From Planktotalea arctica (GTDB lineage: Bacteria; Pseudomonadota; Alphaproteobacteria; Rhodobacterales; Rhodobacteraceae), in the NCBI RefSeq assembly GCF_002105285.1, contig NZ_MUHR01000008.1:48775-112774 (forward strand): a stretch of 64,000 nt of DNA. Direction: 5' to 3'. The translations under genes and the position numbers were made by a program. How positions within the stretch are numbered: position 1 is the stretch's first letter; every line of letters begins with the position of its first letter. Below are positions 36,224-41,824 of this stretch, in pieces. The notes beneath the pieces were generated by a model. It saw nothing but the letters and a program-made list of their open reading frames with translations. It was not told the origin of the DNA and searched no databases.

Positions 36224-37897
36224 TTAGTCGTCAGACTTAAGCGCTGCACCAAGGATATCACCCAAGGATGCACCGGAGTCGGACGAGCCGTACTGCTGTA
36301 CTGCTTCTTTCTCTTCTGCAATCTCGCGCGCTTTAACGGAGACGCCAAGACGACGTGTCTTCGCATCGACGTTGGTGATGCGCACATCAACTTTGTCGCC
36401 GATCGAGAAACGCTCTGGACGCTGCTCAGCACGGTCACGGGACAGATCGGAGCGGCGGATGAAGCTCTTCATGCCTTCATACTCGACCTCGACGCCGCCC
36501 TCTTCGATGGCTGTCACTGTGACAGTCACGATAGAGCCACGCTTTACGCCGCCAACCGCTTCAGCGAACTTATCGCCGCCAAGCGCCTTAACGGAGAGCG
36601 AGATACGCTCTTTCTCAACGTCGACTTCAGACACAACCGCCTGAACGATGTCGTTCTTGTGGTAGCTCTGAATGGCTTCTTCGCCGCGCTCGTCCCAAGA
36701 CAAGTCGGAGAGGTGAACCATGCCATCGATGTCGCCCTCGAGGCCAATGAACAAACCGAATTCGGTGATGTTCTTAACTTCGCCCTCAACCTCAGTGCCC
36801 TCTGGGAACTGCTCTGCAAAGACTTCCCATGGGTTGCGCTGTGTCTGCTTGAGACCAAGGGAAACGCGGCGCTTGGCACCATCGATTTCCAGAACCATGA
36901 CTTCGACTTCCTGAGACGTCGACACGATCTTGCCGGGGTGTACGTTCTTCTTTGTCCAGGACATTTCGGAAACGTGCACGAGACCTTCAACACCTGGCTC
37001 CAGCTCAACGAATGCGCCGTAATCAGTGATGTTGGTGACGCGGCCCGTGTGCGTGGACTCGAGTGGGTACTTGCCAGCAACCAGATCCCATGGATCTTCT
37101 TGCAACTGCTTCATGCCAAGCGAGATGCGGTGCGTCTCTTTGTTGATCTTGATGACCTGAACCTTGACCGTCTCGCCGATTGTCAAAATCTCGGAGGGGT
37201 GGTTCACACGGCGCCATGCCATGTCTGTCACGTGAAGCAGGCCGTCTACGCCGCCAAGATCGACAAATGCGCCGTACTCGGTGATGTTTTTGACAACGCC
37301 GTCAACCGCTTGACCTTCTGTAAGGTTGCCGATGACTTCTGCGCGCTGCTCTGCGCGGGACTCTTCAAGGATTGCACGGCGCGACACAACGATGTTGCCA
37401 CGGCGACGGTCCATTTTAAGAATCTGGAACGGCTGCTTGAGACCCATAAGCGGGCCCGCATCGCGTACAGGGCGCACGTCAACCTGAGAGCCGGGCAAGA
37501 ACGCAACCGCGCCGCCAAGATCAACAGTAAAGCCGCCTTTAACGCGACCAAAGATTGCGCCTTCAACGCGCTCTTCGTCTGCGTATGCCTTCTCAAGGCG
37601 ATCCCAGGCTTCCTCACGGCGCGCCATCTCGCGAGAGATAACCGCTTCGCCGCGCGAGTTCTCTGCAGAGCGCAGGAACACTTCAACTTCGTCGCCGACG
37701 GCGATTTCAGGAGCTTCACCAGGGTTTGCGAATTCTTTAAGATCAACGCGGCCTTCCATCTTGTAGCCTACGTCGATGATGGCTTGGCCCGCTTCGATTG
37801 CGATGACCTTGCCTTTGACAACTGTACCCTCGTCGGGTGTGTCCATCTCGAAGCTTTCGGTTAAGAGTGCTTCAAACTCGTCCATTAGATTTGCCAT
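36224..37897 (-). CDS. rpsA: 30S ribosomal protein S1
   Basis: A 557-aa protein with six S1/OB-fold repeats; repeat signatures such as GRVTNITDYGAFVELEPGVEG and GEVKNITEFGLFIGLEGDIDG are easy to see, and VHVSEMSW closes one unit. It brings mRNA to the 30S subunit. The acidic C-terminal tail is typical. In related genomes cmk lies directly upstream; here about 2.8 kb of extra DNA including an AT-rich cassette intervenes. Confidence 0.97.
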   Translation of the reverse strand: MANLMDEFEALLTESFEMDTPDEGTVVKGKVIAIEAGQAIIDVGYKMEGRVDLKEFANPGEAPEIAVGDEVEVFLRSAENSRGEAVISREMARREEAWDRLEKAYADEERVEGAIFGRVKGGFTVDLGGAVAFLPGSQVDVRPVRDAGPLMGLKQPFQILKMDRRRGNIVVSRRAILEESRAEQRAEVIGNLTEGQAVDGVVKNITEYGAFVDLGGVDGLLHVTDMAWRRVNHPSEILTIGETVKVQVIKINKETHRISLGMKQLQEDPWDLVAGKYPLESTHTGRVTNITDYGAFVELEPGVEGLVHVSEMSWTKKNVHPGKIVSTSQEVEVMVLEIDGAKRRVSLGLKQTQRNPWEVFAEQFPEGTEVEGEVKNITEFGLFIGLEGDIDGMVHLSDLSWDERGEEAIQSYHKNDIVQAVVSEVDVEKERISLSVKALGGDKFAEAVGGVKRGSIVTVTVTAIEEGGVEVEYEGMKSFIRRSDLSRDRAEQRPERFSIGDKVDVRITNVDAKTRRLGVSVKAREIAEEKEAVQQYGSSDSGASLGDILGAALKSDD

Positions 37898-38305
37898 GTG
37901 GCGTTCATTATCCTTTAACGTTGTTTTCTGGCCGCGCGGTTGTCTCCGCCGGTCTTTTACTACGGTTTGGTCGATCTAGTGCAACGCAAGAAAAAGAGGG
38001 CTGGAAGCTCCAACCCTACTCATCTCAATATGTATGCGATGTTCGTCACCGTCTCAACGTTCGCGCGTATAGAGGGGAATCGGGTGTGTGGCAAGTGTGA
38101 TTGGCTTTGACGCACGTGGGCTGCAACAGGGCAATCGCCAGACCGCTGGGCAGGCGATCCAAACTTCGTTCTAAGCGCTTTATGTCAGCCAAATCCTTGC
38201 TCGATCAGAACGGGGCGCATCCCTCCACCAAATCGCCAGCCCTGTCGGGCGGTCTGGCGATTGCCCGGCACATGAATGTGCTATTCGGCCAAACAATTAG
38301 AACGC
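37898..38305. other. Spacer upstream of rpsA containing an inverted-repeat element
   Basis: 408 bases with no supported gene. The part next to rpsA must hold its promoter and leader (AT-rich GCGTTCATTATCC near 37902-37914). The part next to the cassette holds the inverted repeat described separately (38129-38266). Confidence 0.5.
38129..38266. repeat. 138-bp REPIN/MITE-like inverted-repeat element
   Basis: An 18-bp perfect inverted repeat (38129-38146 with 38249-38266; GGGCAATCGCCAGACCGC) encloses a second 10-of-11 repeat (38148-38158 with 38232-38242) and a 6-bp pair CGTTCT/AGAACG further in. Each half can also fold by itself through ATCGCC/GGCGAT, like two REP units in opposite orientation. 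It lies just downstream of the AT-rich cassette. Confidence 0.75.
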
Positions 38306-38479
38306 TCAATCAGCTTTTTCGAGCTCTTCGGTTGCGGAAGCAAACATCCTTTCTACAACCTTTTCGCTCCATTTTTCGACCGACATTTCCTCACGTTCAG
38401 CTTGCTTCATCACCTGAGGAATAAACCTAGTTTTGCCGGACACTTGTTTATCAAGCGATATATCAATCCTACGAGTCAT
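38306..38479 (-). CDS. 57-aa charged partner of the Ntn-hydrolase-like protein
   Basis: A 57-aa protein starting at 38479 behind a strong GGGGGAGG six bases upstream. It overlaps the stop of the larger gene by 11 bases, so both are on one message and translation is probably coupled. The N-terminal strand (RRIDISLDKQV) is followed by a long amphipathic, strongly charged helix (QAEREEMSVEKWSEKVVERM) ending EELEKAD. It could be a small adaptor, inhibitor or DNA-binding antitoxin-like protein; no family is recognised. Confidence 0.7.
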   Translation of the reverse strand: MTRRIDISLDKQVSGKTRFIPQVMKQAEREEMSVEKWSEKVVERMFASATEELEKAD

Positions 38480-39731
38480 TTGATACCTCCCCCGAGTAGC
38501 GTACATCGCGTCGTTGCACGAAGTCACGGTTTAAATCAATATCAAAATAGTGTTTTCGTTTGATCCAAACGAAACCGTCAGATTTTGAGATGATTGCTAC
38601 ATCCACAGGCCCTCCAACAGTCTCCAACCGAGAGTCCATCTTCCGCCGCAAAGACGTCGTTTCAACAAGCGCTTCTGCAACTGCTGCCATTTCTTCTTTG
38701 GGAAGAGAGCTTACTACGCGCATCATTGGTTGAACAAAAGCCTCGCGCCGAAAAGCTCCAAATTGCTCCAGAAACTCTTTAGTCATAGCTTCATTAGCCC
38801 TAAATTGCCTTGCTTCTTCTACAGTGCGTTCATCCGAGTCTGACACATAATCCTTAACGAGCTCTTTGCTTTTCCGGTCGAGAGTTCCCTTGAGAGTCTG
38901 TGCAACAAAATCGATATATTCCGGCAAAAGCCCCTCAATGAATAAGTAGGCAATGTCAGACTGTGCAAAGGGCATTACCACGCCGCCAGCGTCCTCATGA
39001 TTACTATCTCTAATTCGTACTGTCCAAGCACGTGTACTACCGTCTAAGGTGCCATCCACGCAGATTTCTTGAACAACAGGAAGTAGTTCACTTTCACCGA
39101 ATCCAGCAAATACGATACCTGTTTCCGAACCAGATGGAATTGATCTTTTCAGAATTTCATAGCAAGCAGAAATCATTGCGGACAAGACTGGCTTAGTAAT
39201 CAAGATCTCAAGCTTCTCTTCCAAGAATCCTCGTATCTGCTTACTATGTTGCGCGCTGAAATTTTCGCGCGAATAGTCTTCAAAAACAACCGGTGCTTCT
39301 GAAACATCCTCAACAATAGAATTCATTTCGGAGATAAATTTCTTTCTTTTTGCTGTTTTACCCGAGATTTTTTCAAGTACTTCAACGCTGTCATCAATGA
39401 TACTCATCATTATCGAGTAGGTATTTAGGTCGCTCTGAATAGGATGAGGTGTCTTTAAGCCATCTAAGAATTTCAAAAAATGCTTGGAATAATCTGTTAA
39501 GTTTTCAAAAGTGCATTGTCCAAGAGATTTTCGATATTGTTTGATTATGACTTCCCACGGCAAACCGCAGTGATTACCATTGCCAAAAACCATAACTCCA
39601 ACGTCCGCGCATGGCGCTAAATGAAAAAGCTTGTTGCTGTTTTTCCAAACTCGATCGCCGCCAATAGTCAAGGCGCTGTCAGCAGCGAGTGCGATACCAG
39701 TTCTATTTACGATAGCAATTTCTGCAGTCAC
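38469..39731 (-). CDS. Predicted Ntn-hydrolase (proteasome beta/HslV-like) protein of unknown function
   Basis: A 420-aa protein whose best start is the GTG at 39731 (GGAG 7 bases upstream). The product begins M-T-A-E-I-A-I-V, so removal of the start Met exposes Thr1. In mature numbering Asp17 is in LAADSALT and Lys33 in NSNKLFHL, the exact spacing of the Thr1-Asp17-Lys33 set in proteasome beta subunits and HslV, and the strand pattern GIALAADSA followed by VGVMVFGNG also fits. After about 200 residues a helical second half follows with no known domain. It is about twice the size of HslV. No ATPase partner is next to it; the only partner is the 57-aa gene. Base composition is clearly AT-richer than both flanks. 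Confidence 0.75.
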   Translation of the reverse strand: MTAEIAIVNRTGIALAADSALTIGGDRVWKNSNKLFHLAPCADVGVMVFGNGNHCGLPWEVIIKQYRKSLGQCTFENLTDYSKHFLKFLDGLKTPHPIQSDLNTYSIMMSIIDDSVEVLEKISGKTAKRKKFISEMNSIVEDVSEAPVVFEDYSRENFSAQHSKQIRGFLEEKLEILITKPVLSAMISACYEILKRSIPSGSETGIVFAGFGESELLPVVQEICVDGTLDGSTRAWTVRIRDSNHEDAGGVVMPFAQSDIAYLFIEGLLPEYIDFVAQTLKGTLDRKSKELVKDYVSDSDERTVEEARQFRANEAMTKEFLEQFGAFRREAFVQPMMRVVSSLPKEEMAAVAEALVETTSLRRKMDSRLETVGGPVDVAIISKSDGFVWIKRKHYFDIDLNRDFVQRRDVRYSGEVSNDS

Positions 39732-40119
39732 TCGAAATCTCCAGCTTATCGGCACAACTCAAGCGTTAGTATCACTTCGCATCATCCAACTTACAATAGG
39801 TCGTTTGGGCATTCCTAAAATGAAACTAAACGCAAATGACAAATTGGCCACCCCCACCGAACGCACCCCTCACCAATCCTTAACCAACTCGCCCCAAACT
39901 CCCCCTCGGTTAACCACTGAAAACAGGATCACAGACTCGCTTAACCGCGAGCGCCGATCATCTTGCGCAAGACGACGGGGTGAACAGCCCCAGAGCGAGC
40001 AAGGGGATTAAAACACCCCGAGACCTTCTAACGATCCGCTTCATGGCGGCCGCCACTTTTAGAAACAGCAAATGCCAAAGCGGCAGGGCAATCGCCCTCA
40101 GCCGCCGCATTTGCGTGCC
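39732..40119. other. AT-rich spacer upstream of the Ntn-hydrolase cassette
   Basis: 388 bases without a supported gene. It should contain the promoter of the cassette (AT-rich AATGAAACTAAACGCAAATGACAAATTGG near 39818-39846 in plus orientation, split by GC-rich pieces) and the hairpin at 40068-40114. One 13-bp word (CAGGGCAATCGCC, 40084-40096) recurs at 38127-38139, on the other side of the cassette. Confidence 0.5.
40068..40114 (-). terminator. Three-part hairpin downstream of the CIA30-like gene
   Basis: Nested pairs GCAAATGC/GCATTTGC, GCGGC/GCCGC and AGGGC/GCCCT make a long imperfect hairpin 6 bases after the stop of the CIA30-like gene. There is no good T tract, so termination is inferred from position; it may also be a REP-like unit. 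Confidence 0.5.
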
Positions 40120-40650
40120 TCACTCAACCCTCACCTCTCCAACCCAAACATCCGCCTCATAATCCGCCCCATAGGCCGCCAGCCCGATGCTTTTTACATC
40201 GCTCGGGTCCAATTTCTGTCGCAGTACGCGAGAAGAACGCTCGAACGCGGATAGCTCCAGTCGCACCTCGGACCACGCGGCCCCCGCAACAAACGTCGCT
40301 TTATAATTGTGCCACGGCAAAAGCGCTTGGCGGGTGCGCAAGAACACGGTGTAGCGCTCGCCGTTGCCGCGCACTTTCAGCACCAACGCGCTTGCGTCCG
40401 CCGCCAGACCATCTGGAAAATCACGGCGCACTTGAATGAAGCCGCCATTGTTATCCGTGCTCACGCTGCCGCTCAGGTGCATCCCCTCGGGCGTCACCTG
40501 AGCAGTCCCGCTCGACACGCCGCCCATCACATTGTCGCCAATATAGCGCCACCGCTCATTCGCCCCTGCGTCGAAGCGTTCAATCATTTGCACAGGTTCA
40601 GCCATTGCCGCCCCCGCAAATATCATCGCTATAAATGCCCATACTCTCAT
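40120..40650 (-). CDS. CIA30 family protein (secreted)
   Basis: A 176-aa protein with a signal peptide (VWAFIAMIFAGAAMA, cleavage near residue 17). The mature part carries the CIA30 fold (NVMGGVSSGTAQ, NGGFIQVRRDFP, WSEVRLELSAFE), named after NADH:ubiquinone oxidoreductase intermediate-associated protein 30. Bacterial members are galactose-binding-like beta sandwiches of unknown role. It lies on the minus strand 71 bases after cmk. Confidence 0.87.
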   Translation of the reverse strand: MRVWAFIAMIFAGAAMAEPVQMIERFDAGANERWRYIGDNVMGGVSSGTAQVTPEGMHLSGSVSTDNNGGFIQVRRDFPDGLAADASALVLKVRGNGERYTVFLRTRQALLPWHNYKATFVAGAAWSEVRLELSAFERSSRVLRQKLDPSDVKSIGLAAYGADYEADVWVGEVRVE

Positions 40651-40721: not shown

Positions 40722-41330
40722 CTATGGCTTTCGCGCCTCGACCACCGCAATAGCGCGCAATGCTGCGTCCTCGATGCTCATCTGCGATGTATCAATCAGC
40801 ACCGCGTCATCCGCAGGTTTCAGCGGCGCTTCCACACGCTCCATGTCGCGCGCATCGCGGGCTTTTACATCCGCCAGCACGTCCTCGCGCGTGCACGGAT
40901 CGCCCTTGGCCAACAACTCCAGAAACCGCCGCTCCGCGCGCACCTGCGCAGAGGCTGTCACGAACAGCTTGACCGCCGCGTCGGGGCAAATCACCGTGCC
41001 AATGTCGCGCCCGTCAAGCACAGCCCCGCCCGCGCGCTGCGCAAAAGCGCGCTGGAAATCCACCAGTGCTGCGCGCACTTCCGCGATCACTGCCACACGG
41101 CTCGCCGCTTGCGCCACGTCTTGCGTGCGCAGGCCCTGCGCGTTCAAATCCTCTGCCGTCAGCGCCAGCGCCGCTTCGATCGGCTCGACCCCCAACAAGG
41201 TTTTCGCTCCGACTGCGCGATACAATAGACCCGTGTCCAGATGCGCAAAGCCGAAATGCGCCGCGACCGCCTTGGATAGCGTGCCCTTGCCCGCCGCCGC
41301 AGGTCCGTCAATTGCAATGGTAAAGCTCAT
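40722..41330 (-). CDS. cmk: Cytidylate kinase
   Basis: A 202-aa (d)CMP kinase: P-loop [10 protein letters not shown] at the N-terminus, [12 protein letters not shown], and [15 protein letters not shown] with the DGRDIGT motif. It converts (d)CMP to (d)CDP for nucleic-acid synthesis. The ATG at 41330 forms an ATGA overlap with the membrane-protein gene upstream and gives the usual N-terminus; the frame extends further. Confidence 0.97.
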
Positions 41331-41824
41331 TTTATTCTTCTTTTCGTAACGGCTGCGACACTCAAGCACAGGAAAACAAATCCAAGCAGCCCGTATTTCA
41401 CCGTCGTCATCATACTGGCCACCGACGCCGTGCGCCTGAAATCCTGCGATGTTTCCAAATCGCTCAAGAATTTGTTTTCAACCAAATCCGCAAACATATA
41501 ACCCAGCGCAAGAAGCGAAAACAAACCGATAATAGACCTTCCGAATTCCGGGCGCACCCGTTTCAGAACAATGACCAGCGCAACCGCAAGAACCGGAGGG
41601 AATACAGTATCCAACGTGCGAAACAGCCCGAAAAAGACCGCGCGCCCGTCGCCAGCAATGTGCTCCAGAAACGCGTGCACCTCTTGCGGCGTGTATCCAG
41701 TCAAGCGAAGATCAGGTGCAGCGCTGGCACCGAACGGCGGGCCGAAATAGATAATTTGCACGGCGTTCAGCCCCGCATAGAGCGCGATGGCCAAGGCCAA
41801 TATGATGCGCTCGAGCATGTTCAT
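41327..41824 (-). CDS. Small membrane protein of unknown function between aroA and cmk
   Basis: A 165-aa inner-membrane protein with four hydrophobic helices: near residues 5-28, 75-100, 100-118 and 135-155. Between the first two lies a periplasmic loop with [15 protein letters not shown] do not assign a family. Both ends overlap neighbours by four bases (ATGA), so it is translated as part of aroA-X-cmk. Confidence 0.78.

Follow-up and report, generated by a model that had tools for sequence, protein, structure and literature searches.

A predicted proteasome-fold peptidase and its small downstream partner as mobile cargo in Planktotalea arctica and other prokaryotes

What might control a predicted proteasome-type peptidase whose gene travels on phages, satellites and plasmids together with one small gene? 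This question is raised by two overlapping genes in a stretch of 64,000 nucleotides from Planktotalea arctica (contig NZ_MUHR01000008.1), which was analysed as a whole and is called the window here. The first gene (38469..39731) encodes a protein of 420 amino acids with a proteasome-type fold (predicted), and the second (38306..38479) a partner of 57 amino acids; these genes and the codons given below lie on the minus strand. We propose, with even confidence for and against, that they form a mobile two-gene module of a predicted N-terminal-threonine peptidase and a co-inherited small protein that likely binds the tail of the peptidase and controls its activity.

A predicted proteasome-type domain with two insertions

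The open reading frame (ORF) of the protease starts with GTG at 39731, its stop codon ends at 38469 and it encodes Met1-Thr2, Asp18 and Lys34; an alternative in-frame start at 39755 would give 428 amino acids. The GTG start and the 420-residue product were thereby confirmed as read in a preliminary description of this DNA made from the letters alone, as were the 57-residue ORF and its 11-base overlap with the protease gene. In the AlphaFold model (pLDDT 92) the protein is predicted to be a single proteasome-type N-terminal nucleophile (Ntn) domain broken by two helical insertions, and the predicted proteasome beta-type sandwich core was supported by the model, Foldseek and VIA-align. According to the predicted secondary structure, insertion 1 (residues 97-195, 39147..39443) follows H2, precedes the adjoining strand and consists of four helices, and insertion 2 (residues 299-342, 38706..38837) is a long helix between H3 and H4, the labels H1-H4 being given by the order of the predicted elements. 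These insertions may preclude the formation of double rings. The C-terminal half, formerly described as matching nothing known, holds the last strands of the same Ntn domain in this model, which rules out an HslV followed by an additional C-terminal domain.

Thr2 (codon 39726..39728), the predicted nucleophile, aligned with Thr1 of the proteasome. Asp18 (39678..39680; proteasome position 17) and Lys34 (39630..39632; proteasome Lys33) were invariant in the 100 rows of alignment A2, where Thr2 was present in at least 90% of the rows, and Lys34 paired with the Lys of 'KKLF' in the Thermoplasma beta subunit. The spacing of Thr1, Asp17 and Lys33 proposed from the bare translation was borne out by this conservation. 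Moreover, a start codon stood immediately 5' of the Thr codon in 110 of 112 relatives, a subset of 131 loci from which near-duplicates and partial matches had been removed by hand. The exceptions were locus L057, which lacks a start codon there, and L036 (207-1499), in which Ser replaces Thr behind the initial Met (MSACIC...) and may serve as the nucleophile. Thr is predicted to act as the nucleophile after removal of Met, without a propeptide.

Homologues at E<=0.001 made up 5,211 of 7,999 scored candidates. The protein matched PHROG 5990, a family of unknown function, with E 4e-93, and neither PF00227 nor the HslV models matched it at E<=1 in Pfam and NCBIfam. Weak matches to VTC, DUF7391, MalK and Mpi recombinase in these two collections were dismissed as chance.

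The small partner gene and the tail of the protease

In 96 of the 101 unique intact loci with enough downstream DNA, an ORF of 45-95 amino acids has its start within the interval from -45 to +35 relative to the protease stop. Control positions gave 23-28%: 570 of 2,020 when placed at random and 150 of 653 when placed at the end of another ORF of at least 300 amino acids. The small gene accompanies the protease at most loci and is missing at five (L018, L032, L108, L119 and L125), two of which, L032 and L119, have ORFs of 35 amino acids at this place. Separate coding sequences are annotated for the small gene in the public records of L141, L145, L147 and L189. In the window, a ggaggt read from the sequence at 38485..38490 resembles a ribosome-binding site 5' of the small gene.

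The main partner profile, 's..E.e..yfPk...lG..lA..sL..i', matched 44 partner ORFs, bacterial as well as archaeal, and nothing else among the ORFs at E<0.01. Its 22 seeds had been taken from among the ORFs that it went on to match, 32 of them (E<0.01) in the first round and 44 in the final one. A large protein search brought up 52 main-type homologues (E<=0.001), all of them devoid of Pfam domains. No Pfam family matched any of 37 partner members, and ten diverse phage or plasmid-type partners had no match in PHROG. Two matches of the 57-residue protein, to Csx15 in PADLOC (E 0.018) and to a HicB-like family in PHROG, were dismissed as chance. The partner in the window resembles those behind L052, L053 and L054, a similarity equalled by 0, 0 and 4 of 2,000 shuffles respectively, and the Ruegeria partner (L146) aligns with these, an alignment that carries no shuffle figure.

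The partner types follow the protease tree, and the pair is co-inherited. Seven partner types need 7 changes on this tree (minimum 6; shuffled mean 30.9), a count based on 75 labelled rows of 111, with 36 left out and most labels being groups made by eye. Synonymous divergence (dS) was estimable in four of nine pairs, and in these four omega values of 0.12-0.19 indicated purifying selection on the partner. In 83 of 86 pairs conservation was lower in the partner than in the protease, indicating faster evolution; the single-linkage groups of this comparison were drawn from a tiny database, which makes their E-values soft.

The proposed docking site is the motif RKHYF at residues 392-396 of the protease (38544..38558), which is strongly conserved in alignments A1 and A2, with an Asn further on (RKHYF...N), and tracks the partner ORF. 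Among 141 deduplicated loci, tail and partner occurred together in 117, the tail only in 11, the partner only in one and neither in 12 (Fisher p 2e-10), so that a partner ORF was present at 117 of 128 loci with the tail and at 1 of 13 without it. Before this count, 14 loci without N-terminus or full C-terminus were excluded and near-edge and duplicate rows were dropped. The test is post hoc, the tail pattern having been widened after a first look: a stricter pattern on undeduplicated loci had given 112 with tail and partner, 10 with the tail only, 36 with the partner only and 22 with neither, and many of the 36 rows visibly had the tail (GPIWIKRKHYF etc.). Of the 11 tailed loci lacking a partner ORF of 45-95 amino acids, four have ORFs of 34-35 amino acids (L032, L119, L185 and L186) and three a C-terminal extension of the protease (L187, L194 and L207). 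The extension of L207 matches the partner that its relative L206 encodes separately, with 0 of 2,000 shuffles reaching this similarity; L207 is a natural protease-partner fusion. Finally, a divergent smaller subfamily (ORFs of 278-315 amino acids; L049, L137, L163 and L209-L211) retains an RKHYF or RKHFY tail and a partner-size ORF at the stop.

Mobility, neighbourhood and possible role

The pair is mobile cargo on phages, satellites and plasmids and in an exchangeable chromosomal slot. Fifty-one homologous loci lie on viral contigs; the gene occurs in 13 of 50,697 phage records, Streptococcus satellites included, and in 10 of 72,556 plasmid records, and 22 of 5,426 E. coli genomes have a partial DNA match, which lies among prophage genes in both genomes inspected. 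In six of the 13 phage records, which were inspected, the gene is flanked by a DNA methylase and a holin (L141), follows the lysis genes where the record ends (L143), runs antisense to the lysis-gene strand (L144), sits near a satellite end (L142 and L189) or falls within a structural block (L147). Its occurrence in sampled genomes is patchy, with 7 of 101 relatives, 17 of 385 genomes of the class, 12 of 398 of the phylum and 10 of 390 of the order, counts that include the genome of the window, fragments and divergent relatives. Nine archaeal and 63 bacterial loci imply 6 domain changes on the tree, in which the bins may contain foreign contigs. Broken copies with stops or frameshifts were seen at L133, L191 and G099:C2 (L160/L165).

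In the window, the pair has rpsA (36224-37897) on one side and, on the other, a CIA30-like gene (40120-40650) followed by cmk (40722-41369); these gene names are our own reading. The surmise that a mobile, AT-rich cassette interrupts the cmk-rpsA neighbourhood agrees with this carriage and with the local DNA. The GC fraction of the cassette is 0.39-0.47 against about 0.54-0.65 in its surroundings, and two genomes of the same genus align on either side and carry other DNA in between. The alignment to G005 ends at 38288 and resumes at 39852, which sets the cassette at 38289..39851 and leaves 1,674 bp of other DNA in the slot of that genome; the alignment to G003 ends at 38286 and resumes at 39899 (38287-39898 unmatched), with 548 bp of other DNA. 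Regions of G001 and G010 were also compared and neither resolves the insertion site. The slot of G005 (L180:3449-4828) contains an ORF of 459 amino acids that by eye looks like a HAD-type hydrolase with membrane segments. An inverted repeat of 26 nt, 88% complementary, lies beside the cassette junction at 38129-38266; part of this stretch, together with CACATGAATGTGCTATTC as far as the junction, is almost the same in two relatives of the genus. Besides this repeat, a search for att-type flanking repeats gave only short, chance-like ones, and a promoter and terminator scan gave signals at shuffle level. The list of ORFs at 34-44 kb, read by eye, contained no AAA+ gene next to the protease, in agreement with the preliminary description, and specifically no HslU gene.

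The neighbourhood was surveyed with 385 ORFs of at least 100 amino acids within about 4.5 kb of 45 genome loci. There were no fixed neighbours, and ordinary genes of metabolism lie beside many of the chromosomal copies. Families of defence systems, among them restriction, BREX and DISARM, were found in scattered ORFs and integrases in at least five, among the matches listed and with no background set. Near the protease gene, four of nine inspected plasmid regions (three Rhizobium, one Mesorhizobium; ten records matched) encode a multiubiquitin-domain protein and a ThiF adenylyltransferase, which weakly points to defence. In L187, L188, L190 and L191 these genes are within a few kb of the protease, and beside some of these loci DUF6527 and Clp-protease-like genes are annotated or detected. 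A tblastn search with the ubiquitin-like plasmid genes against the other collected loci gave no further cases. Defence is the usual use of such mobile cargo. The cargo positions, the exchangeable slot, the broken copies and the lack of fixed neighbours favour an accessory module that benefits its carrier.

In the mechanism that we propose, the 11-base overlap would couple translation, so that both proteins are made together. The small protein would dock on the RKHYF tail and keep the peptidase inactive, or assemble it, until a trigger arrives, and the peptidase, once freed or assembled, may cleave host or viral proteins. Since the pair behaves like cargo of lysogenic conversion, its most likely role would be to protect the carrier, whether cell or element, from rival phages. 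A wider generalisation is tentative and rather less probable than the module itself: a widespread class of mobile immune proteases, ATPase-free and proteasome-fold, each leashed at RKHYF by a private, fast-evolving small protein and firing when a phage disturbs the leash. With the ubiquitin-like/E1 operon that lies beside the module on rhizobial plasmids, a bacterial counterpart of tagged proteasomal immunity would also be conceivable.

Several results weigh against a tail-bound partner with a defence role. The main partner profile fails on the window's own partner (E 3.3), and homology between partner types of different clades is not established, the best profile-profile comparisons reaching 37% and 31% and the other 19 of 21 at most 2%. 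The tail-partner association is not many-fold independent evidence, since it amounts to just three tail changes on the tree, and a paired tail test had two independent pairs, too few for significance. Ten of 13 divergent alphaproteobacterial loci have no partner ORF, most of them having no tail either. When the protease and partner of L089 were modelled by AlphaFold as one read-through chain, the partner reached a pLDDT of 52-77 (pTM 0.80), too low for a confident placement. The 385 neighbouring ORFs showed no consistent defence neighbour, and 0 families of PADLOC-DB 2.0.0 matched the protease.

The small protein could instead be a dedicated substrate, one cognate protein that is cut or ligated to yield the effector. 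Such chemistry is known from connectase, a homologue in the same superfamily (PMC8665760, in the part consulted), and the stable one-to-one pairing, the clade-specific partner types and a single Pro as the sole nearly invariant residue of the main partner profile would suit it. However, partners of different clades have no detectable motif in common and the fusion in L207 is awkward for a released substrate, which leaves this explanation unlikely. Slightly less likely still is toxin-antitoxin-like maintenance or abortive infection, with a peptidase toxic alone and the small protein as antitoxin. An overlapping two-gene operon on mobile elements, a fast-evolving small gene and broken copies such as G099 and L191, expected of a costly gene, fit this explanation, but the protease comes first in the operon and the small gene second, and the 11 of 128 intact tailed proteases without a partner of 45-95 amino acids speak against it.

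Housekeeping or stress proteolysis, in which a solitary quality-control peptidase would work with general chaperones and the small protein would be an assembly factor, appears the least probable of the three. Clearance of unfolded proteins without AAA+ proteins is discussed by Fuchs et al. (PMC8665760, in the part consulted), and the ordinary metabolic neighbours of many chromosomal copies would agree with such a role. On the other hand, the occurrence is patchy, the gene is carried by phages, satellites and plasmids, and the host genome already has one PF00227 proteasome-family gene of HslV size elsewhere. A mobile peptidase controlled through its tail by the co-inherited small protein is therefore the reading that we retain.

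Relation to known proteasome homologues

The survey that named these proteasome homologues gives, in the part consulted, no lead on function (Fuchs, Alva and Lupas, 2021; PMC8665760). Now that a small partner accompanies the protease almost constantly, is predicted by a tail motif and occurs once in a natural fusion, this question becomes approachable by binding and plating. If the small protein is a switch, a proteasome-type active site would be regulated without an AAA+ unfoldase or a propeptide, and such regulation would have been spread by phages over two domains of life.

The preliminary description had considered a threonine peptidase with a dedicated small partner to be new. The protease itself fits a family described in 2021, and the partner was not found in print in the open-access literature, preprints excluded; in the parts consulted, PMC13022661 refers to the family only by citing PMC8665760 in its reference list and PMC11514479 does not mention it. 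What appears new beside the family description is the small downstream partner, its association with the protease tail and its natural fusion to the protease.

According to the same part of the survey, 22 proteasome homologues are described, and among the PMI types ('Proteasome homolog with Multiple Insertions') the combination of H1/H2 and H3/H4 insertions is confined to PMI-3 and PMI-4. PMI-4 comprises 501 sequences at 90% identity and is marked in phages; PMI-3 comprises 28 sequences and has no phage mark (Table 1 of PMC8665760). The anatomy and distribution of the window protein fit PMI-4, whose representative HDY66466.1 was compared by its description only, and PMI-4 is preferred to PMI-3 because the phage mark and the wide distribution belong to it. 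PMI-4 and the window protein have in common the insertions after H1/H2 and between H3 and H4, the lack of a propeptide and the Thr/Asp/Lys set, and the homologues found here have the distribution described for PMI-4, over a broad range of bacterial groups, Euryarchaeota and phages. In the part consulted, the authors state that neither a genomic context nor a co-occurring gene nor an AAA+ partner was found for PMI-4; the small downstream gene, the tail link and the fusion are additions of the present analysis.

Other relatives differ more clearly. Connectase shares the proteasome-like fold and the N-terminal nucleophile but is a monomeric ligase of some methanogens that lacks H1/H2 and has its insertion at a different site, and PPH and AAH are phage-carried proteasome homologues like the window protease (PMC8665760, in the part consulted). 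PPH, however, has about 140 residues and no such insertions. Anbu likewise lacks them, with chains of about 230-240 residues, and to our knowledge has no small partner gene. HslV shares with the window protein the proteasome fold and a Thr right after the initiator Met, whereas it has about 190 amino acids, lacks these insertions and is paired with HslU.
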